Shown one piece after another: positions 11,767 to 39,596 of a stretch of DNA of 42,587 nt. A program made the position numbers and the translations under genes. The stretch lies in contig JANXTM010000307.1 of assembly GCA_025352405.1 (NCBI GenBank), positions 1 through 42,587 on the forward strand. Reading direction: 5' to 3'. Each line of letters begins with the position of its first letter. Within the stretch, counting starts at the first letter, position 1. This DNA is from Polaromonas sp. (lineage in GTDB: Bacteria; Pseudomonadota; Gammaproteobacteria; Burkholderiales; Burkholderiaceae_C). The notes beneath the pieces were generated by a model. The model saw nothing but the letters and a program-made list of their open reading frames with translations. It was not told the DNA's origin and did not search any database.

Positions 11767-12765
11767 TCACCAGCGCGGTATGGGTTGGTCTTTGAGCTGT
11801 CCACGCAGGTCCGAGTAGTTTGGCACCACGGCGCGCACAGTGTCCCAAAACCGCGGGCTGTGGTCCATCACCCGAAGGTGGCTCAATTCGTGGACCACCA
11901 CGTAGTCGATCACCGACGATTTGAAGTGAACCAGTCGCCAGTTCAACCTTATGGCGCCATCGGCACTGGCACTGCCCCAGCGCGTGCGGGCACTGGACAA
12001 GCTGAGCTTGCGCCACTGCACATCCAAAGTGGGTGCAAAGTGGTCGAGGCGTTCGATAAAAATCCGCTTGGCCTGCCGCATCAACCAAGTCTGTACCGCA
12101 TCGCGAATCTGGTCCGCTGTGGCGCTAAAAGGCAGCCCGACATGCAGCGTCAGGTGCGGCATGGCTGCAGCGACAACCTGCTGCGTGTCAAGAGGCTTGC
12201 TTTTAAGCTCGGTGACAACGCCGCCAGCGGCATGGCACGGGTCCAGCACCACCACCACCTGATCACCCAAAAAAGGCACGCTGCAACCATCTTTCCAATC
12301 AATGCGTCTCGACTCCAGCTGCTGATGCCGCGCACCGATTTCCTGAAGTTTTTTTAAAATCCAGCCTGATTTCTCCAGGACGGCCTTGTCAATTTCGTAA
12401 AGCGGTACCCACTTGGGGGCACTGACAACGAGCCCATCAGGGCAAGCGGAAAACCCGATGGTTCGGCGTTTACCACGCCGAAACTCGTAAGCCACCAAAA
12501 TACCGTCCAATAAAGTTTCCCGCGTCGCCCGGGGGTGGCGAAAAGTAGTTGGCGCCAGGGTCTGTGGTGCATGTGCAATATCAAGCGGTTTGGATTTAGC
12601 TCTTTTTTTAATAGCGATCGGCGCCCGACTTACTTGCCCAAAAGCCTCTTTTTCATCAACATATGACTGTTTTTCCGACGTCTTGGTCGACTTCACGGGT
12701 GCCGCAAACGGTGCAGGTTTGGGCTCAAAAAGATCAAGCGTGAACTGGAGAAGCCGTTGCATCAT
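11767..12765 (-). CDS. YgjP/M48-type zinc metalloprotease
   Basis: 332 residues. The C-terminal third carries the YgjP/SprT-like domain: LSLSSARTRWGSASADG, NWRLVHFKSSVIDYVVVHEL, and the zinc site HELSH at 292-296 with a further histidine at 302 (VMDHSPRFW). The N-terminal 60 residues look like an unstructured, basic linker. Part of it (about 47-57, RAPIAIKKRAK) is encoded by a copy of the short hairpin repeat at 12599-12627. Physiological substrates are unknown. It ends the leftward glyQ-glyS-gmhB-plsC group, 6 bp from plsC, a neighbourhood common in Burkholderiales. Confidence 0.88.
   Translation of the reverse strand: MMQRLLQFTLDLFEPKPAPFAAPVKSTKTSEKQSYVDEKEAFGQVSRAPIAIKKRAKSKPLDIAHAPQTLAPTTFRHPRATRETLLDGILVAYEFRRGKRRTIGFSACPDGLVVSAPKWVPLYEIDKAVLEKSGWILKKLQEIGARHQQLESRRIDWKDGCSVPFLGDQVVVVLDPCHAAGGVVTELKSKPLDTQQVVAAAMPHLTLHVGLPFSATADQIRDAVQTWLMRQAKRIFIERLDHFAPTLDVQWRKLSLSSARTRWGSASADGAIRLNWRLVHFKSSVIDYVVVHELSHLRVMDHSPRFWDTVRAVVPNYSDLRGQLKDQPIPRW
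12599..12627 (+). repeat. Short hairpin repeat, copy c (inside the YgjP-like gene)
   Basis: GCTCTTTTTTTAATAGC followed by GATCGGCGCCCG. This is one of seven copies in the window of a 17-nt imperfect hairpin (GCTAT-type arm, T/A-rich loop, ATAGC arm) with a GC-rich tail. It shares nearly all positions with copy b in gspF. Here it is read in the antisense direction as part of the metalloprotease linker. Confidence 0.75.
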
Positions 12766-12771
12766 GGCGGC

Positions 12772-13548
12772 TCAGCGAAATGGGGCAGCGCTTGGGCTCG
12801 GGTCACGCACAGCAGCGGGGTAGGCGTCGGGGTCGAGTCGGTGCATCTCGGTTTCAATCCAGGCCTCTACCTCGCGCATCAACTCATCGGGCTTGCGGCC
12901 AACGCTGGAGATCGGTTTGCCGATTGAGATATCAACCACGCCCGGCGTCTTGATGAAGGCCTTGCGCGGCCAGCATTTGGCAGACGTCACGGCCACCGGA
13001 ATCACCGGGGCACCGGTTTCAATCGCCAGCCGGGTACCGCCTGATTTGTAGACGCCTTTTTGCCCGCGTTCAATCCGCGTACCCTCGGGGAACATGATGA
13101 CCCAGGTGCCCTGCGCCATCAGGCGTTTGCCCTGCGCCACCACCTTGCTGAAAGCCTGTGCGCGCTGGCTGCGGTCAATGTGGATCATGTCCATGCGGCT
13201 CATGGCCCAGCCAAAAAATGGCACATAAAGCAGTTCTTTTTTAAACACAAAAGCCAGCGGGTGCGGCATCAGCGTGACCATGGAAAACGTCTCCCAGGTG
13301 CTCTGGTGCTTGACCAGCAGTACACAGGCCCCCAGCTCGTCTTTAGGCAGGTTTTCCATGCCGGTCACCCGGTTGCGAATGCCCAAAATTGCGGTGCCAC
13401 CGCTGACAGCCAGACGCAACCAACCCGCACACAGCCAGTAAACCTGGGTGCTGCTGCCAAACAGTGAGAACACCAGCACGGCCAGCGCCCAGGGAATCAC
13501 CGTGATGGCCATCCACAGGAGATGAAGAATGGAGCGGATCAGGGGCAT
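12772..13548 (-). CDS. plsC: 1-acyl-sn-glycerol-3-phosphate acyltransferase (PlsC family)
   Basis: 258 residues. A hydrophobic N-terminus (about 8-34) anchors the enzyme in the inner membrane, where it acylates lysophosphatidic acid to phosphatidic acid. Motif I is VKHQSTWETF: H81 is present, but the usual HX4D aspartate is E86. I recall the HX4E form from other betaproteobacterial members, so activity is likely kept. FPEGTR at 153-158 is motif III, and a VIPVAV block follows. It lies between gmhB and the YgjP-like gene on the same strand. It may be a paralogue rather than the sole PlsC of the cell. Confidence 0.88.
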   Translation of the reverse strand: MPLIRSILHLLWMAITVIPWALAVLVFSLFGSSTQVYWLCAGWLRLAVSGGTAILGIRNRVTGMENLPKDELGACVLLVKHQSTWETFSMVTLMPHPLAFVFKKELLYVPFFGWAMSRMDMIHIDRSQRAQAFSKVVAQGKRLMAQGTWVIMFPEGTRIERGQKGVYKSGGTRLAIETGAPVIPVAVTSAKCWPRKAFIKTPGVVDISIGKPISSVGRKPDELMREVEAWIETEMHRLDPDAYPAAVRDPSPSAAPFR

Positions 13549-13600
13549 GTCAGTTTTTCGGTGAGGTTACAAGACTTTTAGGGCTTTGCGGCAGCAATTA

Positions 13601-13626
13601 CGGGGGCCTGATGCTATTATTTTTGC
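13601..13626 (-). repeat. Short hairpin repeat, degenerate copy g (at gmhB 3' end)
   Basis: On the reverse strand GCAAAAATAATAGC is followed by ATCAGGCCCCCG. The right arm and GC-rich tail match copy e closely (15 of 17 positions over ATAGC plus tail), while the left arm is degraded. The gmhB stop codon TAA lies inside it. Confidence 0.5.
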
Positions 13627-14195
13627 AGTAATTCAGAGGTGGACGCTGCACCGCGCTCCAGGATGAAATCAACAAACGCCGACAAGTCCTGGTGAAAAAA
13701 GGTGCCGTAAGGCATGCCGTCGGGCTGCCCGCCCGCGCGGAATTGTGCTGATTTACCCGTCAGTACCAAATGCGGCTCGCAACCGACGGCAGCGCCCGCC
13801 TGCAAATCGCGGAGCGAATCACCCGCTGTGGGCACGCCCTTGAGCTGCACACCAAACCGCGCGCCTATCTGCTCGAACAAACCCAGCAAGGGTTTGCGGC
13901 AAGTACAGCTTTCCTGTGGGCTGTGCGGGCAGTAAAACACCGCATCGACCCGCCCGCCCACGGCCGCCAGCATCTTGTGCATTTTGGTGTGAATGGCGTT
14001 GAGCGAGGCCACATCAAACAGGCCGCGGCCCAGCCCCGACTGGTTGGACGCAATAACCACATGCCAGCCCGCGTGGTTGAGCCGGGCGATGGCCTCCAGC
14101 GCGCCAGGCAAAGGCATCCATTCTTCAGGGGTTTTGACAAAGTCGTCGCTGTCATAGTTGATGGTGCCGTCGCGATCCAGGATGATGAGTTTCAT
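13617..14195 (-). CDS. gmhB: D-glycero-beta-D-manno-heptose 1,7-bisphosphate 7-phosphatase
   Basis: 192 residues from the ATG at 14195 (MKLIILDRDGTINYDS). An upstream in-frame start would overlap glyS and add residues before a canonical HAD N-terminus. The HAD nucleophile pair is D7/D9 in DRDGT; motif II is IASNQSG at about 48-54. The zinc-binding loop typical of GmhB is present with C89, H91, C97 and C99 (CPHSPQESCTC). The AGDSLRD motif follows near residue 125. The enzyme removes the C7 phosphate in ADP-heptose synthesis for the lipopolysaccharide inner core. It follows glyS by 25 bp. The last residues and stop lie in a degenerate hairpin repeat. Confidence 0.93.
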   Translation of the reverse strand: MKLIILDRDGTINYDSDDFVKTPEEWMPLPGALEAIARLNHAGWHVVIASNQSGLGRGLFDVASLNAIHTKMHKMLAAVGGRVDAVFYCPHSPQESCTCRKPLLGLFEQIGARFGVQLKGVPTAGDSLRDLQAGAAVGCEPHLVLTGKSAQFRAGGQPDGMPYGTFFHQDLSAFVDFILERGAASTSELLQK

Positions 14196-14220
14196 GGGAT
14201 AACCAGAGGCAGGAAAAAGA

Positions 14221-16338
14221 TCAGGTCGCAAGCCGGGAAAGGTCTGCCACCCGATTCATGGCGGCATGCAGCGTGGCCAGCAGGCCCAGGCGGTTCAGGC
14301 GCAAATCCAGTTGCTCGGCATTGACCATCACGCCGTTAAAAAAGTCATCAACCGGGGAACGCAGGGCGGCCAGGGTTTGCAGTGAGGCAGCGTAGTCGCC
14401 CGCTTCAAACTGGGCGTTGGCTTTGGGAACCACGTCCTTGACGGTCGCATACAGGGCAATCTCGGCGGGTTCTGTGAGCAACACTTCGCTGACATGAGCA
14501 TCTACGCTATCTGTCTTTTTGAGGATATTGCTGATGCGTTTGTTGGCTGCGGCCAGGGCTGGGGCTTCGGGGAGGACTGCGAAGGCGCGGACGGCGGCCA
14601 GGCGTTTGGGGACATCTGCCAGGCGCTCGGGGTTCTGCGAAAGCACCGCATCAATCTCCTGGGCACTGAATCCTTGCTCCCGGAGAAGTCCGTCAAAGCG
14701 ATCATAGAAAAATTTGTACATCGACTGCAAGGTCGAATTTGGCACCAACAAGTTCTTGAAGGCGAGGGTGCCACATGCAGCAACACCAGACAAATCAAGT
14801 GGCAACTCTTTTTCCACCATGATTCGGATCACACCCAGCGCATGCCTGCGCAATGCAAATGGATCTTTATCGCCGGTCGGCAAATTCCCAATGGCAAACA
14901 TGCCCACCAGCGTTTCAAGTTTGTCCGCGAGCGCCACAATGACACCCACCTCGTTGCGCGGCAACTCATCGCCCGCGAAACGAGGCTTGTAGTGGTCTTC
15001 AATCGCATCGGCAACATCTGGGCTCAGGCCATCGTTGAGCGCGTAATAGCGCCCCATGGTGCCCTGCAGCTCCGGGAACTCACCGACCATATCGGTCACC
15101 AGATCAGTCTTGGCCAGCTGCGCGGCCTGGTCGGCTTTGTCGGCCAATGCATCACCACCCAGCTGCAGGCCAATCGCCCTTGCAATCGCCCGCACCCGTT
15201 CGACGCGTTCACCCTGCGAGCCCAGCTTGTTGTGATAAACCACTTTGCCCAAACCTTCAACGCGTGACGCCAGTGTCTTTTTGCGGTCCTGGTCAAAGAA
15301 AAACTTGGCATCGGCCAGGCGCGGTCGCACCACCCGCTCGTTGCCACCGATCACAAAGCTGGCGTCAGCTGGATTGATATTGCTGACGACCAGGAATTTA
15401 TTGGTCAGCCTGCCGCTTGCATCGAGCAGTGGAAAGTACTTTTGATTCGCCTTCATGGTCAGAATCAAACACTCCTGCGGCACATCGAGGAATTCTTTTT
15501 CAAACGCGCACACCAGCACGTTGGGGCGTTCGACCAATGCGGTGACTTCATCGAGCAAGGCGTCGTCGTCAATGGGCACCACGCCGCCGCCGATTTTGGT
15601 GGCTGCAGCAGCCAGCTGGCGCACGATCTCGGCGCGGCGCTCGGCAAAGCTGGCAATCACTGCACCGTCTTTTTGCAACGCGCTCGCATAGCTGTCGGCA
15701 TGCAGCAGAACCACCGGATCAACCAACGCTTCAAAGCGGTGGCCATGCGTGATGTTGCCCGCCTTCAGCCCCAGCGCTTCAATCGCCACGACGTCGCTGC
15801 CATGCAAAGCCACCAAGCCATGCGCAGGCCGCACAAACTTCACGTCACTCCAGCCGTCGGCGAGCTGGTAGGTCATAACTTTGGGGATTGGCAAAGCTTT
15901 GAGAGCGGCATCTAGTGCAGATTGAAGAGCAGGAAGAAGTTCTTTTCCAGAAACTTCCTGCTTCAAATACACCTGATCTGATTCGATATACAAATCGTCG
16001 CTAGGCAACGCCCCCTCGACATATCCCAAACTCGCCAATTTTTTAAGCATCGCGGTTGTGGGCTTCCCATCGGGGCCGTACGCCACCTTTGCTGGCATTA
16101 ATTTCTTTATTTCCTTTGTATTTGGAGTGCTTCCGTACACATTGGGAATCCAGGCGGCAAGCCGCCGCGGACTCGCAAAACCAACAACCATGCGTTCTTG
16201 TTCAGGCTCTACAAATCGTTTTGAAACCAGTTCATCAAACAAACGTGCCGAAAAAGCCTCACCCAGTTTTTTCAGTGCCTTGGGCGGCAGTTCTTCTACA
16301 AACAGTTCAACCAGAAGATTTTGAGTAGTCATCGTCAT
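14221..16338 (-). CDS. glyS: Glycine--tRNA ligase beta subunit
   Basis: About 705 residues from MTMTTQNLLVELFVEELPPK; a second ATG at 16332 is possible. It is the large subunit of the bacterial alpha2beta2 glycyl-tRNA synthetase, with the conserved start LLVELFVEELPPKAL, the HD-like/anticodon-binding region toward the C-terminus (residues about 560-690), and DPFALRRHALGVIRI near 520. It charges tRNA-Gly together with GlyQ. It starts 5 bp after the glyQ stop, so the subunits are co-translated. Length and motifs are normal. Confidence 0.97.
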   Translation of the reverse strand: MTMTTQNLLVELFVEELPPKALKKLGEAFSARLFDELVSKRFVEPEQERMVVGFASPRRLAAWIPNVYGSTPNTKEIKKLMPAKVAYGPDGKPTTAMLKKLASLGYVEGALPSDDLYIESDQVYLKQEVSGKELLPALQSALDAALKALPIPKVMTYQLADGWSDVKFVRPAHGLVALHGSDVVAIEALGLKAGNITHGHRFEALVDPVVLLHADSYASALQKDGAVIASFAERRAEIVRQLAAAATKIGGGVVPIDDDALLDEVTALVERPNVLVCAFEKEFLDVPQECLILTMKANQKYFPLLDASGRLTNKFLVVSNINPADASFVIGGNERVVRPRLADAKFFFDQDRKKTLASRVEGLGKVVYHNKLGSQGERVERVRAIARAIGLQLGGDALADKADQAAQLAKTDLVTDMVGEFPELQGTMGRYYALNDGLSPDVADAIEDHYKPRFAGDELPRNEVGVIVALADKLETLVGMFAIGNLPTGDKDPFALRRHALGVIRIMVEKELPLDLSGVAACGTLAFKNLLVPNSTLQSMYKFFYDRFDGLLREQGFSAQEIDAVLSQNPERLADVPKRLAAVRAFAVLPEAPALAAANKRISNILKKTDSVDAHVSEVLLTEPAEIALYATVKDVVPKANAQFEAGDYAASLQTLAALRSPVDDFFNGVMVNAEQLDLRLNRLGLLATLHAAMNRVADLSRLAT

Positions 16339-16343
16339 CACGT

Positions 16344-17249: not shown

Positions 17250-17439
17250 AAAAGTCGATGGTGAAAAAATGTCGCCCGGACGGGTTTTCGGGCACAAATT
17301 AGTGCGTGCAGACACTTGAATGAAATGGTGACTGGTACCGAGCGCAATCGAGTTACGTTTTTTTGCATTTTACGCAGGGCCTGCCAGAACCTGCTACATC
17401 CAGCAATCACCATCGACCGGCGGTCACAGGCAGCGCCGC

Positions 17440-17883: not shown

Positions 17884-17937
17884 GCGCAGATTATGATGGA
17901 TGAGAACATTACTAAAACCGTTGCTTCTAATGCTTTT

Positions 17938-23758: not shown

Positions 23759-26002
23759 ATGACCTCACGCCAAACAAGACCCCTCTTGCCCGTTACGCTG
23801 GCGGCATCGCCAAAAACCCGAATTGCTATTATTTCAATAGCAATAGGCGCTGCGTTTACCTGCCATACTGGCCTTTCCTTCGCTCAAAGTGCAAGCACCG
23901 TACCGGCAACAAGCGCCAGGAACGCCAACCGCCCCGGTGGGCCCGTCACGCTGAATTTCGCCAATGCCGAAATCGACGCTGTGGCACGCACCATGGCGGT
24001 GATCACCGGGCGCAATGTGGTGGTTGACCCACGTGTCAAGGGCACCATGACGCTAGTCACCACCACACCAGTGACGCCCGCGCAGGCGCTGCGCCAGTTC
24101 TCAAGCCAGCTGCGCACGCAGGGCTTTGCTTTGGTGGAGTCATCGGGCCTATATCTGGTGGTGCCTGAGGCCGATGCCAAATTGCAAAGCGGTGCGGTTT
24201 CGGCGGGCGCTGTACCGGCAGCCAGTGGTCAGATCATCACGCAGATATTCCGGCTTAACCACGAAACGGCCAATAACCTGGTGCCAGTGTTACGCCCGCT
24301 GATCAGCCCGAACAACACCATCAACGTCAACCCGGGCAACAACTCGCTTATCGTCACCGACTATGCCGATAACCTGCAACGCATCGGCACCATCATTGCG
24401 GCCTTGGACGTAGCCAATGCCACGGGCGTCGAGATCATTCGCCTGCAGTACGCCATTGCAACGGACCTCGCGCCGCTGGTCACGCGGCTGATTGACTCCG
24501 GTGCCGCCGGGGCAGCTGGCCAGGGCCAGGCAGACACGTCTTTCAAAACCACGCTGCTGGCCGAGCCGCGCAGCAACTCACTGATCCTGCGTGCTGCCAA
24601 TCCGGCCCGCCTGGCATTGGTCAGAACCCTGGTCGAAAAACTTGACCAGGGTGCGTTTGAGAACTCGTCCACCGGCGCCCACCAGGGCAAAGACACAGCC
24701 AGCGGCAACATTTACGTGGTCTACCTTAAAAACGCCGACGCTACCAAACTAGCCACCACCTTGCGTGCAGCGCTGGCAGCCAACGCTGGCAGTTCAGGCG
24801 GCTCCACCGCCAGCATCGGCTTGTCTTCTGCCCCGCTGGCAAGCAGCACCGGTGGCGCTTCCGGGGCAGCAAGTGCTGTCAATCCGGCAACTTCTTCGGG
24901 CCTGGCGAACAACCAGCCATCGACAGGCGGGCAAATCCAGGCCGATCCGTCCACCAACTCGCTGATCATTACGGCGCCCGAGCCGCAGTACCGGCAATTA
25001 CGCGCAGTTATCGACAAGCTCGACGCGCGGCGGGCCCAGGTGTTTGTAGAAAGCCTGATTGCCGAGGTCAACGCCGACAAGGCAGCCGAATTTGGCATAC
25101 AGTTCCAGGGCGCGCTAGGAAAAAAAGGCGACAACAACATCGGTCTACTGGGAACCAATTTCGCCATTGGCGGTGCCAACATCATTTCTCTTGCCACACA
25201 GGCGGCCAAAGGCGGAACACTGCCCTCAACGGGCGGCAACTTCGGCATCGCCTCCAAACAAGGCAACGGCGTATACGTGCTGGGTTTTCTGGCACGTTTT
25301 CTGGAGTCAAGCGGTGAGGGCAACGTGCTGTCCACGCCCAACCTGCTGACCCTGGACAACGAGGAAGCACGTATTGTGGTGGGCAGAAGCGTGCCCTTTG
25401 TTACTGGCCAGTACACGAGCAACAACAGCAACTCGGGGTCGGTCAATCCGTTTCAGACGGTTGAACGCAAAGACGTTGGCCTGACGCTGCGAGTCAAACC
25501 GCAAATCAGCGAGGACGGCAGCGTCAAATTACAAGTTTTCCAGGAGGTCAGCAGTGTCGACCAGGCCACCATCAACAACCCGAACGGCCCGACCACCGAC
25601 AAGCGTTCAATTGAATCCAACGTAGTGGTTGAGGACGGCGCCATTGTGGTTTTAGGCGGTCTGCTAACTGACGAATACTCGGGTGGCCAGGAAAAGGTTC
25701 CATTGCTTGGAGATATTCCACTTTTCGGCAACCTGTTTAAGGGCGAAAAGCGCGGGCGCAACAAAAAGAACCTGATGATTTTTCTGCGTCCCGTGGTAGT
25801 ACGCGATGCCGCGTCTACCGAGAGCCTGTCGATGGACCGCTACGACTTGATGCGCAGCCTGCAAATAAATGCCCAGCCTACGCCCAGCGTGATGGTTCCC
25901 ATCAACTCGGGGCCGCAGCTGCCCCTGCAAATGCCGCTGCCGGTGCGGCCAGAAACAGTTGCACCGCCCGTGCCAGCGCCTCTTTTGACACCCGTGAGAT
26001 AA
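23759..26002 (+). CDS. gspD: GspD, outer-membrane secretin
   Basis: 747 residues. A signal peptide (about 20-43, ending SFAQ) precedes N0 (LNFANAEIDAVARTMAVITG), N1-N3 domains, and the secretin barrel domain from about 430. The barrel region includes QVFVESLIAEVNADKAAEFG, ESSGEGNVLSTPNLLTLDNE and the closing VPLLGDIPLFGNLFKG. A Ser/Gly/Ala-rich loop (about 340-400) sits within N3. The C-terminus is Pro-rich and no pilotin-binding S-domain is obvious. It forms the outer-membrane gate. Residues 23-31 (AIISIAIGA) of the signal peptide are encoded by a hairpin repeat copy at 23825-23852. Confidence 0.97.
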   Translation: MTSRQTRPLLPVTLAASPKTRIAIISIAIGAAFTCHTGLSFAQSASTVPATSARNANRPGGPVTLNFANAEIDAVARTMAVITGRNVVVDPRVKGTMTLVTTTPVTPAQALRQFSSQLRTQGFALVESSGLYLVVPEADAKLQSGAVSAGAVPAASGQIITQIFRLNHETANNLVPVLRPLISPNNTINVNPGNNSLIVTDYADNLQRIGTIIAALDVANATGVEIIRLQYAIATDLAPLVTRLIDSGAAGAAGQGQADTSFKTTLLAEPRSNSLILRAANPARLALVRTLVEKLDQGAFENSSTGAHQGKDTASGNIYVVYLKNADATKLATTLRAALAANAGSSGGSTASIGLSSAPLASSTGGASGAASAVNPATSSGLANNQPSTGGQIQADPSTNSLIITAPEPQYRQLRAVIDKLDARRAQVFVESLIAEVNADKAAEFGIQFQGALGKKGDNNIGLLGTNFAIGGANIISLATQAAKGGTLPSTGGNFGIASKQGNGVYVLGFLARFLESSGEGNVLSTPNLLTLDNEEARIVVGRSVPFVTGQYTSNNSNSGSVNPFQTVERKDVGLTLRVKPQISEDGSVKLQVFQEVSSVDQATINNPNGPTTDKRSIESNVVVEDGAIVVLGGLLTDEYSGGQEKVPLLGDIPLFGNLFKGEKRGRNKKNLMIFLRPVVVRDAASTESLSMDRYDLMRSLQINAQPTPSVMVPINSGPQLPLQMPLPVRPETVAPPVPAPLLTPVR
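23825..23852 (+). repeat. Short hairpin repeat, copy a (inside gspD signal peptide)
   Basis: GCTATTATTTCAATAGC, with 6-bp arms, followed by AATAGGCGCTG. It lies in frame in gspD and encodes the hydrophobic core of the signal peptide. Same 17-nt layout as copies b-f. Confidence 0.75.
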
Positions 26003-26008: not shown

Positions 26009-27409
26009 ATGCGCTACCCTTTGCCTTACGCCTTTGCACGCAGCAATGCCTTGCTGCTGGAAGACGATGGCCACGGCCTGCTGCTGTGGCACAACGCCAG
26101 CCCGGACCTGGCAGCCCTGGGTGAAGTGATGCGTAAATACGGCGCGCAAAGCCCGGTAATGAACTTGAAGCGCGCCGACCCGGGCACGCTGGCGCAGCGC
26201 ATCAGTGCGGCTTATGCTGACGGCGAGTCGAGTGCGGCAGCGGTGGTCAGCGAGGTCGAGTCCGACGCCGACCTGTCGCGCATGATGCAAGACCTGCCGG
26301 CGGTAGAAGACCTCCTTGAAACCTCGGACGACGCGCCCATCATTCGCATGCTCAACGCGTTGCTCACGCAAGCCGCGCGCGATGGCGCCAGCGATATTCA
26401 TATCGAGCCTTACGAGCGTCATTCCAGCGTGCGTTTTCGGGTAGACGGTACGCTGCGCGAGGTGGTGCAACCGAACCGGGCACTGCACGCCGCACTGATA
26501 TCGCGCCTGAAGATCATGGCCGACCTCGACATTTCTGAAAAACGCCTGCCGCAGGACGGCCGCATCAGTTTGCGCATCGGTACCCGTGCAGTCGATGTGC
26601 GCGTCAGCACCTTGCCCAGCGCCCACGGCGAGCGCGCCGTGCTGCGTTTGCTGGACAAAAGCGAAAGCAAACTGAGCCTTGAGTCGGTGGGCATGCAGGG
26701 CGACGTGCTGCATCGCTTTGAAAATTTGGTCACGCAGCCGCACGGCATCATTTTGGTTACCGGGCCGACCGGCTCTGGAAAAACTACAACGCTATATGCG
26801 GCGCTTCAGCGGCTGGACGCCGGTGCCAGCAACATCATGACGGTGGAAGACCCGATTGAGTACGAACTGCCGGGCATTGGCCAGACCCAGGTCAACGCCA
26901 AAATTGATCTGGACTTTGCCAAGGCCCTGCGCGCCATCCTGCGGCAAGACCCAGACGTGATCATGATCGGCGAAATCCGCGATTTTGAGACGGCTCAAAT
27001 TGCCATCCAGGCTTCGCTGACTGGCCACCTGGTACTGGCCACGCTGCACACCAACGACGCAGCAAGCGCCGTCACGCGTCTGACCGACATGGGCGTTGAG
27101 CCATTTCTGCTGAGCTCTTCCTTATTGGGCGTGCTGGCACAACGCCTGGTGCGCAAGGTATGCATTCATTGTCACGGAACCGGTTGTGGCGAATGCGGCC
27201 AGACCGGCTACCAGGGCCGCACCGGTGTGTTTGAGCTGATGGTCGCCAACGACGCAATTCGTGCGCAGGTACATAACCGCGCCTCTGAAGCAGACATTCG
27301 CATGGCCGCCATTGAAGCTGGCATGGCGTTGATGCGTGAGGATGGCGAGCGCCTGGTAGCGAATGGCATCACCTCGCGCGAAGAGCTGATGCGAGTGACC
27401 CGAGATTAA
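26009..27409 (+). CDS. gspE: GspE, type II secretion ATPase
   Basis: 466 residues. An N1E-like region leads into N2E ([20 protein letters not shown] at 127-146), then the ATPase core with Walker A GPTGSGKT at 252-259, Asp box near 280 ([10 protein letters not shown]), Walker [11 protein letters not shown] at 316-325 and the His box [10 protein letters not shown] at 341-350. The tetracysteine zinc site is C385, C388, C393 and C396 with only four residues between the CxxC pairs, much tighter than the usual linker of a few tens of residues. It powers pseudopilus assembly at the inner membrane with GspL. A GC-rich repeat follows the stop. Confidence 0.96.
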
Positions 27410-27411
27410 TA

Positions 27412-27505
27412 TGGCCCCCACGGTCGCGCACTTTGTGTCGCTCCCTGCCCCCCTAGGGGGCCGCTGCGCCTGTGGCCCGGCAAAGCCGGTTCCACGGCCC
27501 CTGCT
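27412..27505. repeat. GC-rich intergenic repeat, copy B (gspE/gspF spacer)
   Basis: Shares block order with 18387-18480: GCCCCCACG, CACTTTGTGT, CTGCCCCCCTAGGGGGC (contains the perfect palindrome CCCCCTAGGGGG) and a tail with CCGGCAAAGCCGG, a second hairpin. CCCACGGTCGCGC recurs at 27537-27549, so part of the element is repeated in the same 174-bp spacer. It may attenuate or stabilise the message between gspE and gspF. Confidence 0.68.
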
Positions 27506-27583
27506 TGCAAAAACACGCCCACACTGCGGCATCGCACCCACGGTCGCGCGCAACGCGCAATCTGCCCCGGAAGTGATGACCTA

Positions 27584-28810
27584 ATGCCCGCCTATTCATT
27601 TGAAGCCATGCAAAGCGATGGCAAAATCCGCCGTGGTGTGATCGACGCTGACACGGCCAGGGCAGCCCGCAGCATGCTGCGTACCCAGGCGCTGGTGCCG
27701 TTAGCCGTGAATGCCGTCAGCAACGGCGAAGCGGCAACCGCATCACTGCTCCAGACCAATCTGTTTGGCGGTCGTGTGTTCAATGCTACAGGCCTGTCCA
27801 TCTGGACACGTCAGCTCGCCGGGCTGGTGGCTGCAGGTCTGCCGCTCGAACGTGCGTTAACGGCCCTGTCTGACGAAGCCGAGGACGAGAAACAGCGCAA
27901 CCTGGTGGCCGCCTTGCGTTCTGAAGTCAATGGTGGCTCCAGTTTTGGACGGGCGCTGGCGCAGCACCCACGCGAGTTTGAGCTGATCTACACCGCTGTC
28001 ATTGGCGCCGGTGAGCAAAGCGGCCAGCTGGGCATGGTGCTAGAGCGCCTGGCCGATGATCTTGAAGAACGCCAGACCCTCAAGTCCAAGCTCATGGCCG
28101 CGGCCCTGTACCCGGCCATCGTGACCTTGGTGGCAATTGTCATCGTGATGTTTCTGGTCGGCTATGTGGTGCCGCAAGTAGCCAATGTGTTTGCCGGCAC
28201 CAAGCGCGCCTTGCCCTTCCTGACCGTCGCCATGCTGGCCATGAGCGATCTGGTGCGGAGTTATGGCTGGGCATTATTGGGAGCTCTTATTTTGATAGCG
28301 TTTGGCGCCCGTATTTTCTTGCGGAACGAGGCTTTTCGTGAGAAATTTGACGCTGCAACGCTGACGATTCCCGTGGTTGGTCGCCTGGCGCGCGACTACA
28401 ACGCAGCGCGTTTTGCCAGCACACTGGCGATGTTGGCCGGTGCCGGTCTGCCTATCCTGAAGGCGCTGCAAGCGGCGGCTGAAACACTGTCCAACCGGGC
28501 CATGCGCGCCGATGCCCTAGACGCACTGTTACTGGTGCGTGAAGGTGCACCGCTAGCATCGGCACTGGCGCAAAAAAAGCGCTTTCCTGGCCTGGTCAGC
28601 ATGTTTGCGCGTTTGGGCGAGCAAACCGGTCAACTCCCGGTGATGCTGCAACGCGCAGCAGCCCAGTTGTCCAACGAGGTACAGCGCCGTGCCATGGCAC
28701 TGGCCACCATTTTGGAGCCCCTGCTGATTGTGGCCATGGGACTGGTGGTGATGCTGATCGTGCTGGCGGTGCTGCTGCCCATCATTCAATTGAACCAGTT
28801 CGTGAAGTGA
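27584..28810 (+). CDS. gspF: GspF, inner-membrane platform protein
   Basis: 408 residues with the two GspF repeats. The first starts with TRQLAGLVAAGLPLERALTAL, and the second with FASTLAMLAGAGLPILKALQ. Membrane segments lie near 170-190, 220-245 and 375-400. It is the polytopic core of the assembly platform. A 174-bp spacer separates it from gspE. Residues 234-243 (ALILIAFGAR), in a membrane helix, are encoded by a hairpin repeat copy at 28283-28311. It converges with lnt, 43 bp away, with only a small CGGGCTTCCCG hairpin between. Confidence 0.96.
   Translation: MPAYSFEAMQSDGKIRRGVIDADTARAARSMLRTQALVPLAVNAVSNGEAATASLLQTNLFGGRVFNATGLSIWTRQLAGLVAAGLPLERALTALSDEAEDEKQRNLVAALRSEVNGGSSFGRALAQHPREFELIYTAVIGAGEQSGQLGMVLERLADDLEERQTLKSKLMAAALYPAIVTLVAIVIVMFLVGYVVPQVANVFAGTKRALPFLTVAMLAMSDLVRSYGWALLGALILIAFGARIFLRNEAFREKFDAATLTIPVVGRLARDYNAARFASTLAMLAGAGLPILKALQAAAETLSNRAMRADALDALLLVREGAPLASALAQKKRFPGLVSMFARLGEQTGQLPVMLQRAAAQLSNEVQRRAMALATILEPLLIVAMGLVVMLIVLAVLLPIIQLNQFVK
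28283..28311 (+). repeat. Short hairpin repeat, copy b (inside gspF membrane helix)
   Basis: GCTCTTATTTTGATAGC followed by GTTTGGCGCCCG. In frame, it encodes part of a GspF membrane helix. It is nearly identical to copy c in the YgjP-like gene. Confidence 0.75.
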
Positions 28811-28853: not shown

Positions 28854-30542
28854 TTAACGGCTCTGTCGGCGGCCCACAGCTGCAACACCCACCAAGCCCA
28901 GGCACAGTGCCCACCAAGGCCACAGCCCAAAACGAGACACCCACCATGCATAAGGGGTGATGCCACTGCGCCCCTCAACCGGCCCGACCAGCACGCCACG
29001 GGTGTGGCGTTCTAGGGCATGGGTGACCTGGCCGCGATGGTCAATGATGGCAGTCGCACCGGTATTGGTCGAACGGATCATGGGTCGCTCAAACTCGATG
29101 GCGCGCATGCGGGAGATATTCAGGTGCTGGTCAATTGCAATGGTGTTGCCGAACCAGCCGATGTTGCTGATGTTTACAAAAAGGGTGGGGCTGGTTGCCG
29201 GGTCGATAAAGCGCGCAGCGAGTTCTTCGCCAAACAAATCTTCATAGCAAATATTCGGGGCTACCCGCTGACCCTGCCAGTCAAAAGACGGCTGGCTGAC
29301 CTCGCCACGGTTGAAGTCCGACAACGGCATGTTGACGATGGCCAAAAACCATTTGAACAAGGGGTGCACGAACTCGCCAAACGGCACGAGGTGGTGCTTG
29401 TCGTAGCGGTACACCCTACTTTCAACATCATCCGGACTTGCGCCCACTGGACCTGTGACCACAGGTTTGAGCCCGATAACGGAGTTGGTATAGCCCTGCT
29501 GGCTGCTGCCCAGCGGTATGCCTACCAATGCCGCTGTTGGCGATGCCCCGGGCTCTGGTTGCATGAAATGATTCAGCAAATCGGCAAGGTAGCCTTCGGG
29601 CAATTGCTCTGGCAGCAGGGGGAGCGCCGTTTCAGGGGTCACCACGAGCGACGCCGTGCTGCGACGCAACTGCTCGCCGTACCACTCGAGTGCATCAGGA
29701 ATACCGCTGCCTCCTAAAAACTTTTCGTTCTGGGCGATATTGCCCTGAAGCAGCGCCACGGTAAAAGGTTTGGTGGCTATACCAGACACAGCGGCCGGAT
29801 GGGTTGACGTGAACAAGGACACGCCTTTGTCCACTTTGAGGGCGAAGCTGGCCACGCCAGCGAGCACAAGCACTGCAGCTACGCTCAAGACACTGCGCCA
29901 GCGTGGCCGCGGCGCCAACCCCACCACCGCAGCCCCAACCCACGCACTGGCAAATGTCAACCCATGAACACCCACCAACTTGGCCAGATTGGCAAACGGG
30001 CCATCGAGCTGCGCATAACCGCCCTCACCCCACGGGAAGCCGGTAAAAAATGCCACGCGGCCCAACTCGGCCAGCAGCCACAAGGCGGCGAAAACAAGCG
30101 CACTACTTGCGGTATGGCCGGTAGGACGACCCGCATCATAAACGGACGAAAGACGCACAAACACGGCGCAAACCACCGCGTGGTAGAGCGCCAGAAACCC
30201 AGCCAGCCCCACGATTGCCAGCACCGCCAGCCCAGAGGCCAGCCCGCCGTAGGTGTGCAAGGAAATAAACAGCCACCACCAGGTAGCGCACTGCATGGCG
30301 GTGGCGAACAACCAGCCCAACCAAGCCCCTTGACGGGCGCTGGTGCAGCGGCAAAGCTGCCACACCAGCGCCAGCATTGCTAGCACCTGCAACCACCAGA
30401 GCGGTTGTCCGTGCGCCAATCCGGCATAAAAAGGCCACGCCAGACTAGCTGCATGAGCGCAACCAGCTATTAAAACAATAGCAAATGCTGATTTGGGAAG
30501 GGCCGGCGCCAAGTCAGTGCGGCGCAAGGCTGGCCAGTGCAT
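28854..30542 (-). CDS. lnt: Apolipoprotein N-acyltransferase
   Basis: About 562 residues from MHWPALRRTDLAPALPKSAF, overlapping the end of corC by 29 bp; a frame to 30620 adds a cysteine-rich tail unlike the family. Several N-terminal membrane helices precede the nitrilase-fold domain. The Glu-Lys-Cys triad is visible in VTPETALPLL, YDKHHLVPFGEF and APNICYEDLFG. The enzyme N-acylates the lipid-modified cysteine of lipoproteins at the inner membrane. A C-terminal helix anchors it (about 540-558). A hairpin repeat copy encodes AIVLIAGCA at residues 21-29 in the first membrane helix. Confidence 0.95.
   Translation of the reverse strand: MHWPALRRTDLAPALPKSAFAIVLIAGCAHAASLAWPFYAGLAHGQPLWWLQVLAMLALVWQLCRCTSARQGAWLGWLFATAMQCATWWWLFISLHTYGGLASGLAVLAIVGLAGFLALYHAVVCAVFVRLSSVYDAGRPTGHTASSALVFAALWLLAELGRVAFFTGFPWGEGGYAQLDGPFANLAKLVGVHGLTFASAWVGAAVVGLAPRPRWRSVLSVAAVLVLAGVASFALKVDKGVSLFTSTHPAAVSGIATKPFTVALLQGNIAQNEKFLGGSGIPDALEWYGEQLRRSTASLVVTPETALPLLPEQLPEGYLADLLNHFMQPEPGASPTAALVGIPLGSSQQGYTNSVIGLKPVVTGPVGASPDDVESRVYRYDKHHLVPFGEFVHPLFKWFLAIVNMPLSDFNRGEVSQPSFDWQGQRVAPNICYEDLFGEELAARFIDPATSPTLFVNISNIGWFGNTIAIDQHLNISRMRAIEFERPMIRSTNTGATAIIDHRGQVTHALERHTRGVLVGPVEGRSGITPYAWWVSRFGLWPWWALCLGLVGVAAVGRRQSR
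30456..30482 (-). repeat. Short hairpin repeat, copy d (inside lnt first membrane helix)
   Basis: On the reverse strand GCTATTGTTTTAATAGC (6-bp perfect arms) is followed by TGGTTGCGCT. It is in frame with lnt and encodes AIVLIAG of the first hydrophobic segment. Confidence 0.7.
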
Positions 30543-31395
30543 CAACCGGTGACACCTTGAACCAGCGCACCGCGCCGCCTTTGGTGTGCAGCACTGTGAA
30601 TTGCAGGCCAGACAGCGCAAAGTGTTCCCCGCGCTTGGGGACGTGGCCCATTTCGTGGGCTACCAGGCCGCCTATGGTGTCGAAGTCGGCGTCAACCAGC
30701 GCCACACCAAAGGCCTCGCTCACGCGCTCAATCGAAGTGTCACCACTGACGCGATAGGTGCGGTCGGGCAGGCCAAAAATATCGCCTTCGTCTTCGGCGA
30801 TGTCAAACTCGTCCTCAATCTCGCCAACGATTTGTTCCAGCACGTCTTCAATCGTGATCAGCCCGGCCACGCGACCAAACTCGTCGATCACGATGGCCAG
30901 ATGGTTGCGATTGCCCCGAAACTCACGCAGCAAGTCGTTGAGTCCCTTGCTCTCGGGCACAAACACCGCTGACCGCAACAGGGCCTTGATGTTGAGCTCG
31001 GGCGCGCGCTGCATTTTGAGCAAGTCCTTGGCCATGAGAATGCCGAGGATGTTTTCCTTGTCGCCCTCATAAACCGGAAACCGCGAGTGGGCGGTGTCAA
31101 TGATCAAATGCAGCAGTTCGTCAAACGGTGCGTCAATATTGATCAAGTCCATGCGCGGGGCGGCCACCATCACGTCGCCCGCCGTCATGTCGGCCATACG
31201 GATCACGCCTTCGAGCATCTCGCGGCTCTGGGCACCAATGACGTCGTTGTCCTGGGCTTCCACCAGAGTTTCGATCAGCTCGTCTTTTGAATCCGGACCG
31301 GGGTGGAGCATTTCAGCGAGCTTTTGAAGAAAGCCGCGCTTGTCTTCCGGTTTGGAAACCTTGCCGGAGATGTGACTGGGGGGAATATCGGACAC
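30514..31395 (-). CDS. corC: CorC/HlyC-family CBS-domain protein
   Basis: 293 residues from a GTG at 31395. Two CBS domains (about 70-190: TAGDVMVAAPRMDLINIDAP, HSRFPVYEGDKENILGILMA, then FRGNRNHLAIVIDEFGRVAG) are followed by the CorC_HlyC C-terminal domain (about 205-285, TYRVSGDTSIERVSEAFGVA). The family is linked to Mg/Co efflux and to membrane lipoprotein biogenesis through its tie to lnt. It lacks the DUF21 membrane domain, so it is the short cytoplasmic form. Its end overlaps lnt, and corC-lnt is a common pairing. Confidence 0.92.
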   Translation of the reverse strand: MSDIPPSHISGKVSKPEDKRGFLQKLAEMLHPGPDSKDELIETLVEAQDNDVIGAQSREMLEGVIRMADMTAGDVMVAAPRMDLINIDAPFDELLHLIIDTAHSRFPVYEGDKENILGILMAKDLLKMQRAPELNIKALLRSAVFVPESKGLNDLLREFRGNRNHLAIVIDEFGRVAGLITIEDVLEQIVGEIEDEFDIAEDEGDIFGLPDRTYRVSGDTSIERVSEAFGVALVDADFDTIGGLVAHEMGHVPKRGEHFALSGLQFTVLHTKGGAVRWFKVSPVDALASLAPH

Positions 31396-32239: not shown

Positions 32240-32493
32240 AGACCAAAATATAAGGGTTTTCCCTAGGCCTGCAAGTCTAGAGGGTTTTAACGTTTGTTGT
32301 CCCACTTGACCAGGCCATCCGCAAGACCTGTAAGACCATGCATAAAATACGCTCCTGCGACAGCAAACTCAGAGGCCATATGCTATCCAAAAAATAGCAT
32401 TATCCGTCTCGCGCGGCAATCCGGATTACACATCCAAAGCCGATCGTTGGGTCATGCTGTAGCGGATTATTTTTGAAATTGGTTGAAAGCGCG
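32240..32493. other. 254-bp gene-free gap between the Lrp and GNAT genes
   Basis: No convincing reading frame, tRNA or known RNA was found. It holds one hairpin repeat (32370-32398). The promoter of the GNAT gene must lie here, but no clear -35/-10 pair stands out. The stretch 32400-32480 contains ATCCGGAT and AT-rich sequence of no assignable role. Confidence 0.5.
32370..32398 (-). repeat. Short hairpin repeat, copy f (intergenic)
   Basis: On the reverse strand GCTATTTTTTGGATAGC is followed by ATATGGCCTCTG. The arms GCTAT/ATAGC are perfect. This is the only clear intergenic copy. Confidence 0.7.
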
Positions 32494-33132: not shown

Positions 33133-33154
33133 CAATAACAGCAGGAGACACAGC

Positions 33155-35070: not shown

Positions 35071-35242
35071 AGAGCTTTGCAAAGGCACGCATTTTTCTTG
35101 CAAAAGTTGACATGGCTTGCCCGGAATTCACCAGAAAACTGAGTGGGTCTGGCCTTAAATTCTCACACACTGGCGCTCAAGCGTTGCCGCCCCACAAGCC
35201 AAAGGGCAGAATAGAACATCTATACAACCACGGAATTCCACC

Positions 35243-36070: not shown

Positions 36071-36945
36071 TCATTCAAGGCGCAAGCCCGGCGGTGTACG
36101 GTCAGTCAACCCGGCCGCCCCGGGGCGACTACGCACGCGGCGGGCAAGTCAATACAGACTACACCTGCCCGCAAAACTACGCAGCCTACACTGCAGCTGA
36201 CCACGACATCTACCGCCGGTTGTATGAGCGCCAGTCCGCCTTGCTGCCCGGCCTGGCGTGCGACGAATTCATCACGGCCCTGCCCTTGCTGGGCGTGAAA
36301 ACCCAGATTCCGCGCTTTGAAAAAATCAATGACCGCCTGTACAGGGCGACAGGGTGGGAAGTGGTCGCGGTTCCGGGGCTGATTCCCGAAGTGCCTTTTT
36401 TCACTTTGCTGGCCAACCGGAAATTCCCGGTGACAGACTGGATCCGCAGGCCAGACGAGTTTGACTACGTTGTCGAGCCCGATATTTTTCACGACCTGTT
36501 TGGCCATGTGCCCCTGCTGTTCAACCCGGTATTTGCCGACCACATGCAGGCCTATGGCGCGGGGGGCCTGAAAGCCCATGCGCTGGGTGCGTGCGAGCAG
36601 CTTTCACGCTTGTACTGGTACACGATTGAGTTTGGCCTGATACAGCAGAAAAGCGGCCTGCGCGCTTATGGTGCCGGTATTCTGAGCTCGGCTGGCGAAC
36701 TGGCGTACGCGGTCAAAAGCAGCGTACCCCACCGGATTGCCCTCAACCTGCTGCGCGCCATGCGAACGCGCTACAAAATCGACAGCTATCAGAAAACCTA
36801 CTTTGTGATTGACAGTTTTCAGCAACTGTTCGACATGACAGCGCCAGACTTTACACCGCTGTACGCTGCGCTCCAGCGCTTGACTGAACTTCCAGCCGAC
36901 GTGCAAGCGCCAGGCGATGTGATGGCCAGCGCAGTGATGGCGTAA
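36058..36945 (+). CDS. phhA: Phenylalanine 4-monooxygenase
   Basis: 295 residues from MAEIVIQGASPAVYG, starting inside the end of pheC. The enzyme hydroxylates phenylalanine to tyrosine with tetrahydropterin and non-haem iron. Iron ligands are H145 and H150 in FHDLFGHVPLL and E191 in YWYTIEFGL. PFFTLLANRKFPVTDWIR and the GILSSAGELAYA segment are typical. It lacks the N-terminal regulatory ACT domain of animal enzymes, as bacterial forms do. The pterin recycling gene phhB is not in the window. Overlap with pheC implies co-translation. Confidence 0.96.
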   Translation: MAEIVIQGASPAVYGQSTRPPRGDYARGGQVNTDYTCPQNYAAYTAADHDIYRRLYERQSALLPGLACDEFITALPLLGVKTQIPRFEKINDRLYRATGWEVVAVPGLIPEVPFFTLLANRKFPVTDWIRRPDEFDYVVEPDIFHDLFGHVPLLFNPVFADHMQAYGAGGLKAHALGACEQLSRLYWYTIEFGLIQQKSGLRAYGAGILSSAGELAYAVKSSVPHRIALNLLRAMRTRYKIDSYQKTYFVIDSFQQLFDMTAPDFTPLYAALQRLTELPADVQAPGDVMASAVMA

Positions 36946-36982
36946 AACGCTGAGTCACCCGTAAAATAACGCGGAGGACCTG

Positions 36983-37891
36983 TCAGGCAGGCGGGCGCTT
37001 CAGCATGGCCAGCGTAGTGTCCATGATGGACGGTAAAAATGCCATCTGAACGTGCGCTGCACCGCGCACAAGGCGGTTATCTGCACCCGGTAGGGTAGCG
37101 GTTGAGGTCGGAAAAACGATGTTGTCACAATTGGAGTACCAGCAGGTGAAGCGGCCATGGCGATCAACCGGCATGTCTCGGTCAAGCCGGGTCTGCCAGT
37201 CTGAGAGCAAGCGCATCTGCCGGCCATTGTGGCCATGACCAAAGCGCGCCAACCAGGTACCGCGATGTGGCGTTCCGATGGTCACGACATGGTGTACGCG
37301 CGCTTCGGATTTCATGGCTTGAAGCCACGCCCTCGCAGCCAGCCCGCCCATACTGTGGCACACCAACAAGGGCGGCAAACCAGTGACCAGCGTGACCTGA
37401 CGGACCGCTATTTCAATGTGCGGTACGTAGCCGTCAATTGAGCCGAACAGCGGCTCCAGGTTGACCGCCACAAAGGCGTGGCCCTGTCCCTGCAGTCGTT
37501 CGAGCCACGGGTTCCACAAACCACGGTTGCAGAAAAATCCATGCACGAAGACCACGCCCCGAAGGCCATGGGCGAGGCCCATCGGTGACAGGTTGTCCGG
37601 GAGGGCCTTGGCGCGAAAAGGCTGACGCCAGCAGAAGACCTGAGGCGCTGTCAAAGTCTCACCAACCCACGCGCGAAGCAGTTCTGACCAGCCCGGTTGG
37701 GGCGTCGGATCAGACTTATTGACATACCGCAGAATGACGAATTCAAGCGCCAGAATACCGGTGTAGGCAAAAACGATCAACAAAGAACCAGCGATGGCCA
37801 GCAGGGGCGAACTGTCGCGAAAATACACCCACCAACTACCGGCCAGGGCAATCAGCGCAAAGGTAAGGAATTTTTGTAAGCGGGCCAGCAT
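36983..37891 (-). CDS. Membrane-anchored alpha/beta hydrolase (esterase/lipase family)
   Basis: 302 residues. Two N-terminal membrane segments (about 9-24 and 29-54) are followed by an alpha/beta hydrolase domain on one side of the inner membrane. GVVFVHGFFCNRGLWNPWLE supplies the oxyanion strand, and VCHSMGGLAARAWL the nucleophile elbow, with Cys in place of the first Gly of GxSxG. A likely acid is in NCDNIVFPTSTATLPGADN, and the histidine in RGAAHVQMAFLP. This resembles PGAP1-like lipases found in betaproteobacteria. The substrate is unknown. It is downstream of and on the same strand as the GMC oxidoreductase. Confidence 0.85.
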   Translation of the reverse strand: MLARLQKFLTFALIALAGSWWVYFRDSSPLLAIAGSLLIVFAYTGILALEFVILRYVNKSDPTPQPGWSELLRAWVGETLTAPQVFCWRQPFRAKALPDNLSPMGLAHGLRGVVFVHGFFCNRGLWNPWLERLQGQGHAFVAVNLEPLFGSIDGYVPHIEIAVRQVTLVTGLPPLLVCHSMGGLAARAWLQAMKSEARVHHVVTIGTPHRGTWLARFGHGHNGRQMRLLSDWQTRLDRDMPVDRHGRFTCWYSNCDNIVFPTSTATLPGADNRLVRGAAHVQMAFLPSIMDTTLAMLKRPPA

Positions 37892-37970
37892 GGGAAAACG
37901 GTCGTCAAGTGCAAAGATCAGGTCGGGCGGTTAAAGCTGCGGGCCCGAGGTTCGCAGAACATACGGTGGC

Positions 37971-39596
37971 TCACACAAGCGCCACGTCCTCGCCCGTCAG
38001 CGTTTTTGCCAACGCTTGCGCCAGACGATTGACAGCACCATACACCGAGAGCTGCGGATTGGCACCGATGCTGGTCGGGAAAAGGGAGCCGTCATGAATC
38101 GACAGATTTTCAAGCTGCCAGTGCACCCCGTCAGGCCGGGTCACACCCAGCGCCTCGCTGCCCGCCAGACCACAGCCGCCCATTACGTGAGCGCTCACTA
38201 CCTTGGTTAACAATGGTTTCATGGGTAAGGCGTTAACGGCGTCACGTGCCTGTGACCAGGTGGTGTAGGGCTGCGCCATCTCATGCAGTGGCAAAACCTG
38301 CAGGGCACCGGCTGCAAACTGGATTTCCATCATTGAGAGCAGCGCCCTGCGGCCGCCTTCCATGATGTAGTTGGTCAGGGCGTAGTCGAGCACGGGGGAG
38401 TCGTCGCCACGGAGCTTGACCTGGCCGCCCGGTGCGCCGTCATGAAAGCCATCGCGCATGAGCGCCAGCAAGGTATGGTTGTGTGGGAAGGCCTTAAGCA
38501 AATCGTGCTGGCTCTTGCCGATGCCCGGCACGGTGGAGGCAAAAATAAGCGGATGCAGTGGCGGCGCTTCCAGCTTGTAGCCGATGGGGCCATCAATGGC
38601 CTGGGTTTCCAGAAAATGGTCGGTGTAAATGGTTTGTGGCGCGCCGTTCCAGGCCTCGACCTTTTGCTCGAACACCCCGGACGACATCACCACCGGATGC
38701 AGAAAGGTTCTTTTCCCCAGACGGCCATGGGGGTCAGGCGCGCCAGAACGCAGCAGCACGGCCGGGGAGTTGATGGCTCCACCTGCCAGCACATAATGTT
38801 TTGCTACTATTTTTATAGCGTCTGGCCCCCGCGTTTGCTGCCGCAGGGCATCATTTGACTCCAAAGAACGGCATAGTAATGCAGTTACCCGGCCATTGCG
38901 CAGCTCAAAGCGTTCAGCGCGGGTTTCTGTGAGCAGCCGCGCGCCCTTGTCGAGCGCAGCCGGGAGAGTGGTGACCAGCATGGATTGCTTGGCATTGGTC
39001 GGGCAGCCCATGCCGCACGAGCCCAGGTTCCAGCAGCCTTTGACATTGCGCGCGATGGCTTGCGCGGCAATGCCCAGCTTGGCCGCGCCGCGGCGCAACA
39101 AGTCGTTGTTCTCGTTGGGCGGCGTGAGCCACGGCACGATGTTGAGTCGCCGCTCGGCCTGTTCAAAATAAGGCGACAAGGCATCGACGGTGTAATGCTT
39201 CAGGCCAAACCGGTCTTGCCAGAACTGCAGCGTGGACGCTGGCGTGCGAAACGAAGAGGTCCAGTTCACCGTCGTAGAGCCACCAACACAGCGGCCCTGC
39301 AGGATATTGATGGCCTTGTCTTCAGTTTTGCGGGCCGCGCTTTCCTGATAAAGCTGGGGGTAGGCTTCAGACTCTTTTTGATTGAAGTCGCGGCTGCTTT
39401 TGAGCGGCCCCTCTTCAATGATCACCACCTGCAACCCGGCTTTGGTCAGGAGTTCAGCGGTAATGCCGGCGCCAGCGCCGCTGCCGATAATGGCAACATC
39501 GCAAAGGATGTTTTCAGGAGTGGCGCCAAACGGACCACCCATCACTTTCCAGCCGCGTTGGATGCCCTCACGGACGGGGTCTTGCAGTTGACTCAT
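37971..39596 (-). CDS. GMC-family FAD oxidoreductase
   Basis: 541 residues. The FAD-binding GSGAGAG lies at 38-44 (CDVAIIGSGAGAGITAELLT). A GRCVGGSTTVNWTSSFRTPA block, a CxxxxCGMGC cysteine cluster (residues about 188-199) and the C-terminal SAHVMGGCGLAG and GANPQLSVYGAVNRLA with the catalytic His/Asn region follow. Such enzymes oxidise alcohols, sterols or sugars. It has no signal peptide of its own, but the upstream gene encodes a Tat-signal small subunit, so the pair may be exported together. Residues encoding DAIKIVAK derive from a hairpin repeat copy at 38803-38831. The exact substrate is not known. Confidence 0.9.
   Translation of the reverse strand: MSQLQDPVREGIQRGWKVMGGPFGATPENILCDVAIIGSGAGAGITAELLTKAGLQVVIIEEGPLKSSRDFNQKESEAYPQLYQESAARKTEDKAINILQGRCVGGSTTVNWTSSFRTPASTLQFWQDRFGLKHYTVDALSPYFEQAERRLNIVPWLTPPNENNDLLRRGAAKLGIAAQAIARNVKGCWNLGSCGMGCPTNAKQSMLVTTLPAALDKGARLLTETRAERFELRNGRVTALLCRSLESNDALRQQTRGPDAIKIVAKHYVLAGGAINSPAVLLRSGAPDPHGRLGKRTFLHPVVMSSGVFEQKVEAWNGAPQTIYTDHFLETQAIDGPIGYKLEAPPLHPLIFASTVPGIGKSQHDLLKAFPHNHTLLALMRDGFHDGAPGGQVKLRGDDSPVLDYALTNYIMEGGRRALLSMMEIQFAAGALQVLPLHEMAQPYTTWSQARDAVNALPMKPLLTKVVSAHVMGGCGLAGSEALGVTRPDGVHWQLENLSIHDGSLFPTSIGANPQLSVYGAVNRLAQALAKTLTGEDVALV
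38803..38831 (+). repeat. Short hairpin repeat, copy e (inside the GMC oxidoreductase gene)
   Basis: GCTACTATTTTTATAGC followed by GTCTGGCCCCCG. It is in the antisense orientation to the gene and encodes GPDAIKIVAK on the reverse strand, between the FAD domain strands. The tail closely matches copy g. Confidence 0.7.

Follow-up and report, generated by a model that had tools for sequence, protein, structure and literature searches.

A ~55-bp palindromic motif dispersed through Polaromonas chromosomes, probably a recognition sequence formed in place

Background

The stretch of DNA examined here, positions 1 to 42,587 of contig JANXTM010000307.1 from a Polaromonas sp. (assembly GCA_025352405.1) and hereafter referred to as the window, carries seven copies of a short palindrome followed by a shared tail. 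An original prediction made from the letters of the window had described these as 17-nt hairpins lying mostly inside genes and interpreted them as a small mobile or gene-conversion-spread palindrome that tolerates insertion in coding frames. The seven sequences were found where they had been placed and belong to one dispersed family occurring far above chance. With a probability of roughly 0.6, this family is a chromosome-wide, double-stranded recognition sequence of ~55 bp with a dyad core, formed in place and present in several hundred copies per Polaromonas chromosome; its assignment to the class of in-place-evolving, protein-read chromosomal motifs is likely. No other motif of this length (~50 bits) is known to us to build up by base substitution at numerous sites, some of them in conserved genes.

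Results and discussion

Structure of the motif and its copies in the window

The core of the motif is GCTAT-N7-ATAGC, which is followed ~5 nt on by a tail near GCCCCCGTATTTnCTGCCGCAgaGGCcTTTTT that ends in a T-run, the whole copy extending over ~55 bp. Alignment of the window copies with those from the rest of the genome gave the consensus AATT-GCTATT-AT-rich-AATAGC, ~5 free bases and a tail near GCCCCCGTATTTnCTGCCGCAnAGGCcTTTTT, with an information content of ~46-57 bits. The rows of this alignment were picked by pattern and number 22: all seven copies from the window plus 15 from among the 21 remaining pattern hits, six hits that have no clear tail (L004, L006, L011, L016, L019 and L022) being excluded. 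Thus, the predicted hairpin and tail are present, but the copies are longer than had been described. A GGC(G/C)C tail, ascribed to all seven, holds in five and gives way to TGCGC at 30456 and GGCCT at 32370, while the 5' arm at 13601-13626 is degenerate, as claimed.

Profiles were retrained on whichever genome was scanned. With a profile trained on the copies lying outside the window in the source genome (G000, a Polaromonas draft of 3.78 Mb in 346 contigs), all seven sites score 30.1-60.1 bits (Table 1); every other position in the window stays below 8 bits, and no match was obtained after reversing the window. No Rfam family reached its gathering score anywhere in the window. Five of the sites lie within open reading frames (ORFs) and one overlaps a stop codon, both in agreement with the original prediction.

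Table 1. Copies of the motif in the window, with host genes and scores from the window-free profile
Copy	Motif position (strand)	Gene or region (strand)	Location of the motif	Score (bits)
YgjP-like	12594..12658 (+); palindrome 12599-12615 plus tail	YgjP-like gene, 11767-12765 (-)	N-terminal part	42.3
Stop codon, degenerate 5' arm	13570..13634 (-)	HAD-type gene, 13617-14231 (-)	Spans stop codon and following gap	55.1
gspD	23820..23884 (+)	gspD (GspD), 23759-26002	Signal-peptide region	30.1
T2SSF	28278..28342 (+)	T2SSF gene, 27584-28810	Membrane stretch	34.8
lnt	30423..30487 (-)	lnt (Lnt), 28854-30620 (-)	N-terminal membrane stretch	31.4
Intergenic	32339..32403 (-)	Intergenic		49.6
GMC oxidoreductase	38798..38862 (+)	GMC oxidoreductase gene, 37971-39596 (-)		60.1

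Abundance and distribution

The genome-wide scan that had been proposed as a check revealed a large excess, with 228 exact GCTATN7ATAGC palindromes in G000 as against 3 for the reversed pattern, and 22 exact occurrences of GCTATTNTTTTNATAGC as against none reversed. A total of 62 distinct palindromes in motif context were identified in 360.2 kb of G000, drawn from contigs already showing covariance-model matches, and extrapolation from these gives ~650 sites per genome; the reversed control gave none. A second genome, G024, is taken here to be that of P. naphthalenivorans CJ2, not by its name; matches to the motif pair published for that strain agree. Its 4.41-Mb contig carries 61 sites in 400 kb of sampled sequence spread across it, again with none in the reversed control. 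The density in the two genomes is therefore ~150-170 sites/Mb.

Among 200 genomes of the family, 56 hold at least 20 exact palindromes (maximum 317) and 131 hold fewer than five. Covariance-model matches were obtained in 19 of 25 Polaromonas genomes (source included). The other six gave none, as did all 16 genomes sampled in different families within the order; since at most 128 candidates were scored per genome under strict filters, these zeros are not proof of absence. The covariance count itself is a floor, 150 of 1482 candidates having been scored, all with E <= 1.1e-8. In the stretches orthologous to the window, 81 copies were found in 16 of 17 motif-bearing congeners, the remaining one (G003) having no copy in its 10.9 kb, and none in 40.6 kb from five motif-free congeners; the reversed controls were likewise empty. 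Four 50-kb stretches of two plasmids, scanned from the records named CJ2, gave 0 copies with the G024 profile as against 31 expected; the G000 profile produced two marginal scores (12.7 and 12.3) on one of these stretches, neither of them recovered with the G024 profile. The tail varies with lineage, taking the form GCGCA...TGCGCAAAAGGC in G024 and CAAGCGCTAGAGGCC in an Acidovorax locus.

Base substitution or insertion

In lnt, 22 orthologous loci were compared. Eight of them have a palindrome with both arms exact, six of these eight sharing the identical 17-mer, and four more are one base off. The palindrome uses the rare codons TTA and ATA (~3% of Leu and ~9% of Ile codons, respectively, in long ORFs), while in motif-free congeners all four loci are without the motif and use other, mostly GC-rich codons. 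The palindrome codons align without gaps in 20 of the 22 loci, a count that, like that for T2SSF below, includes many orthologous loci without the motif; the exceptions are a one-residue gap in the motif-free G013 and a five-residue gap in G017, so that three of the four motif-free loci show no protein gap at the palindrome. Other gaps, of up to 37 residues, lie at most 10 residues from the palindrome in eight more loci, and the protein alignments place them mainly in an unconserved N-terminal extension. The lnt copy is present in none of 30 further genomes (its position being extrapolated where the alignment started later), although 20 of these hold 103-317 palindromes elsewhere. From the distribution among these genomes we infer that the copy was gained in place within part of Polaromonas.

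A similar picture emerges from other genes. T2SSF has the motif in some of 19 orthologues and not in others, and its palindrome codons are gap-free in all 19. In single-protein comparisons, the motif-encoded stretches of LpxB, Dxr and CoaBC align gap-free to solved homologues; RarA shows no insertion relative to its solved homologue, which is two residues longer. The corresponding alignment of Lnt stopped short of the motif, and DprA has small indels near it. Thus, in the six genes in which the two processes can be told apart (lnt, T2SSF and those for LpxB, Dxr, CoaBC and RarA), the copies appear to have arisen by base changes, and insertion into coding frames, along with the likeness to the mobile palindromes of Rickettsia genes that the original prediction had drawn, is not supported. 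The copies in dprA and rarA, together with those in two large ORFs which by eye resemble subunits of DNA-repair helicases or nucleases, were encountered at L217:5381-6547, L218:2184-3548 and L206:1606-7526.

At the YgjP site, 16 congener loci were aligned, of which four have exact arms and three differ from them by one base; five loci of motif-free congeners are unlike the motif, and the alignment region is gapped, with G005 lacking the stretch altogether. The aligned congeners at the GspD and GMC sites are all motif-bearing: the arms are exact in seven of nine aligned gspD orthologues, and the GMC palindrome is found in all ten aligned orthologues (11 fetched), with exact arms in six, one change in two and two changes in two. 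Palindromes occur at the place of the stop-codon copy in G011 and G024. Congener alignments at intergenic sites are gapped. By eye, flanks diverge around retained palindromes. Adjoining the orthologous intergenic motif of 32339-32403, an inverted repeat near TGTTGCAGCGCAACAAC was seen by eye in five congeners (L056, L060, L067, L068 and L091).

The original prediction also held that codon use does not explain the repeats, and in two genes the palindrome codons are indeed among the best conserved. The GMC codons GCT-ATH-AAA-ATA-ATA-GCA persist with little change across the ten aligned orthologues, and none of the 514 other windows in that gene matches the palindrome in conservation of codon use; in GspD the corresponding figure is 1 of 405.

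Genomic context, orientation and arms

Copies lying wholly within genes number 23 of 62 in G000 (360 kb) and 18 of 61 in G024 (400 kb), as compared with ~82-84% of random positions; since the genes were called with a simple home-made program that trims N-termini, this share may be too low. The description of the repeats as mostly inside genes therefore fits the window and fails in the larger samples, in which about two thirds of the 123 pooled copies are not wholly inside genes. Of the 41 that are, 28 fall in one of the six orientation and frame classes, and the favoured frame encodes peptides like ...RAxxAIKxIA; such a bias is expected if the proteins decide where the DNA motif may form.

Intergenic copies favour gaps between convergent genes (21/66 as against 53/375 gaps; for G000 by itself the preference falls short of significance, P 0.10) and are scarce in divergent ones (4/66 as against 81/375), while those in tandem gaps point both ways with no link to the direction of transcription. 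No replication-strand bias was detected in G024, where 30 of 61 copies are on the leading strand inferred from GC skew, and an orientation polar to replication, of the Chi or FtsK-orienting polar sequence (KOPS) type, is thus not seen. The motif occurs in all 20 sampled stretches of this genome, with no positional trend by eye. The spacing of copies is not significantly more even than chance (P 0.12).

Changes in the five arm pairs of 126 hits, a count in which a few palindromes appear on both strands, are one-sided in 100 cases and compensatory in 4. Pairing equals the expectation under independence, so that the covariation of a repetitive extragenic palindromic (REP) or other hairpin element is absent, and the palindrome RNA is weak (mean minimum free energy ~-2 kcal/mol). 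These findings point to half-sites that a protein recognises in double-stranded DNA.

Relation to known repeats and uptake sequences

Part of the motif has been reported before. A spaced pair, ATAGCT(N)22CAAAAG, is described in P. naphthalenivorans CJ2 with 125 copies (101 intergenic, 18 in genes and 34 between convergent genes), and the account available assigns it no function (PMC5217627). Across 400 kb of G024 this pair matches 14 times, 13 of these matches falling within hits of the present motif. The form of the motif in G024 contains the pair, and the element is thus one reported earlier as an unexplained motif; as far as that account goes, the description covers the motif in part, the orthologue, plasmid and family-wide analyses being additions here (PMC5217627). 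The same source gives a repeat of Acidovorax ebreus TPSY, GCTTAT(N)5AAGCG, with 4% of its copies in genes (PMC5217627). This repeat is similar to the latter half of the Acidovorax form of the motif. One locus (L153) holds a copy ending in CAAGCGCTAGAGGCCTTTTTT after the palindrome; a scan of the five named loci yielded no exact TPSY pair.

HIP1 of cyanobacteria is likewise a highly repeated palindrome but, as described, has 8 bp, as against the ~55 bp of the motif, and is linked to methyltransferases (PMC4390886). The Beta-proteobacterial repeat element (BRE), repeated in Bordetella and Polaromonas with some copies in genes, is reported at ~90 bp and 69% GC in Bordetella and is also unlike the motif (PMC3110155). 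A separate repeat in the window, at 27409-27506 (98 bp, 71% GC, folding at -42.5 kcal/mol), has pieces at 78-91% identity in G000 and G024 and at 87-96% in many congeners; going by the published description, which it fits better than the motif does, it may be the BRE (PMC3110155).

Close parallels are the DNA uptake sequences (DUS) of Neisseriaceae and the uptake signal sequences (USS) of Pasteurellaceae. As described, these too change by point mutation in place, form lineage dialects, lie in many genes yet are enriched outside them and show no chromosomal strand bias (PMC1939737, PMC3630211). The genomic excess, the point substitution even within genes (lnt and T2SSF) and the lack of strand bias are traits that the present motif shares with them. 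In the genes where this can be judged, the motif appears to have formed by point substitution at positions that tolerate it in the protein. A putative DNA-binding protein would read it, and selection or biased replacement would keep it; the force could be preferential uptake of motif-bearing DNA in natural transformation, as in those two families. Uptake or self-recognition is the leading guess for this force, albeit a tentative one, and that the Comamonadaceae have in this motif a further, independent kind of sequence for DNA uptake or self-recognition, with a long dyad, genus dialects and reshaping of codons and peptides by molecular drive, is a shade more doubtful. In the literature searched, no paper was found with the exact phrases "DNA uptake sequence" and Comamonadaceae, or "uptake signal sequence" and Burkholderiales. 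The source genome encodes ComEC and a ComP_DUS-type pilin.

Several observations weigh against a recognition sequence formed in place, or against its role in uptake. The protein that would read the motif is a postulated one. ComEC occurs in 195 and ComP_DUS-type pilins in 193 of the 200 family genomes, motif-rich and motif-poor alike, so that machinery for uptake may exist, but its occurrence does not follow that of the motif. DUS and USS have 9-12 bp cores, are denser and are described as not palindromic, and uptake is proven for them, while here it is argued by analogy (PMC1939737, PMC3630211); ~46-57 bits is a high information content for an uptake sequence, and the density lies below published ones. 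The conserved-codon test fails in lnt (304/433 windows as high or higher) and T2SSF (374/392), where congeners are split between motif present and motif absent, and is weak in YgjP (19/270). Insertion remains compatible with the YgjP, GspD, GMC, DprA and intergenic copies, and the plasmid sample that lacks the motif comprises 200 kb from two plasmids of a single strain.

Competing explanations

The main rival is that selection keeps the motif as a binding site of a chromosome protein inside the cell, one associated with the nucleoid or acting in segregation or repair. This possible, though not probable, alternative agrees with the motif-free plasmid stretches, the dyad half-sites without covariation and the presence of the motif in every sampled stretch of G024, but would lead one to look for an orientation bias or positional trend of the kind that G024 lacks, and strong selection on hundreds of ~50-bit sites would be needed. 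Spread as a mobile element similar to REPs or miniature inverted-repeat transposable elements (MITEs), or as a palindrome propagated by gene conversion, would account for the long shared consensus, the intergenic preference and the intergenic, YgjP, GspD and GMC sites. A Y1_Tnp gene, of the REP-associated tyrosine transposase (RAYT) type, is moreover found in 53 of 56 motif-rich as against 99 of 144 motif-poor genomes, kinship uncorrected. Such spread is nevertheless unlikely, given the six genes without insertion, the motif-free CJ2 plasmid stretches and two genomes that carry more than 200 copies without a Y1_Tnp match. Nor does the linked RAYT-type transposase envisaged in the original prediction find support: 15 RAYT loci of motif-rich genomes, the source genome's own not among them, hold three exact palindromes in total (one within the RAYT gene itself, another ~180 nt away from the matched domain), and in none do copies bracket the gene. 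Matches to Y1_Tnp such as L186:1927-2646 occur in 152 of the 200 genomes of the family, often as a single match.

A bidirectional transcription terminator or RNA hairpin is suggested by the preference for convergent and avoidance of divergent gaps and by the T-run ending the tail; it is improbable, more so than a mobile element, in view of the weak RNA fold, the arms without covariation, the 41 of 123 copies inside genes and the tandem copies pointing both ways. Chance production by AT-rich codons of membrane proteins is refuted as a full explanation and has next to nothing left in its favour as such. The palindromes in Lnt, GspD and T2SSF do encode A-I/L-x-x-I-A membrane stretches, so that proteins predispose some sites; however, profile scans gave zero matches in reversed controls, most copies are not wholly inside genes, and congeners without the motif use different codons for comparable stretches. 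A chromosome-wide recognition sequence formed in place thus remains the preferred explanation, and the overall claim of the original prediction is retained as to a real family for which codon use is insufficient, and set aside as to insertion at the sites where this can be judged.

Conclusions

The findings caution that palindromes inside genes are not necessarily insertions. If an intracellular protein is responsible for the motif, an undescribed chromosome-wide binding system would be common to many genera, whereas if biased uptake is the force, many environmental bacteria would possess a sequence-specific mating barrier.

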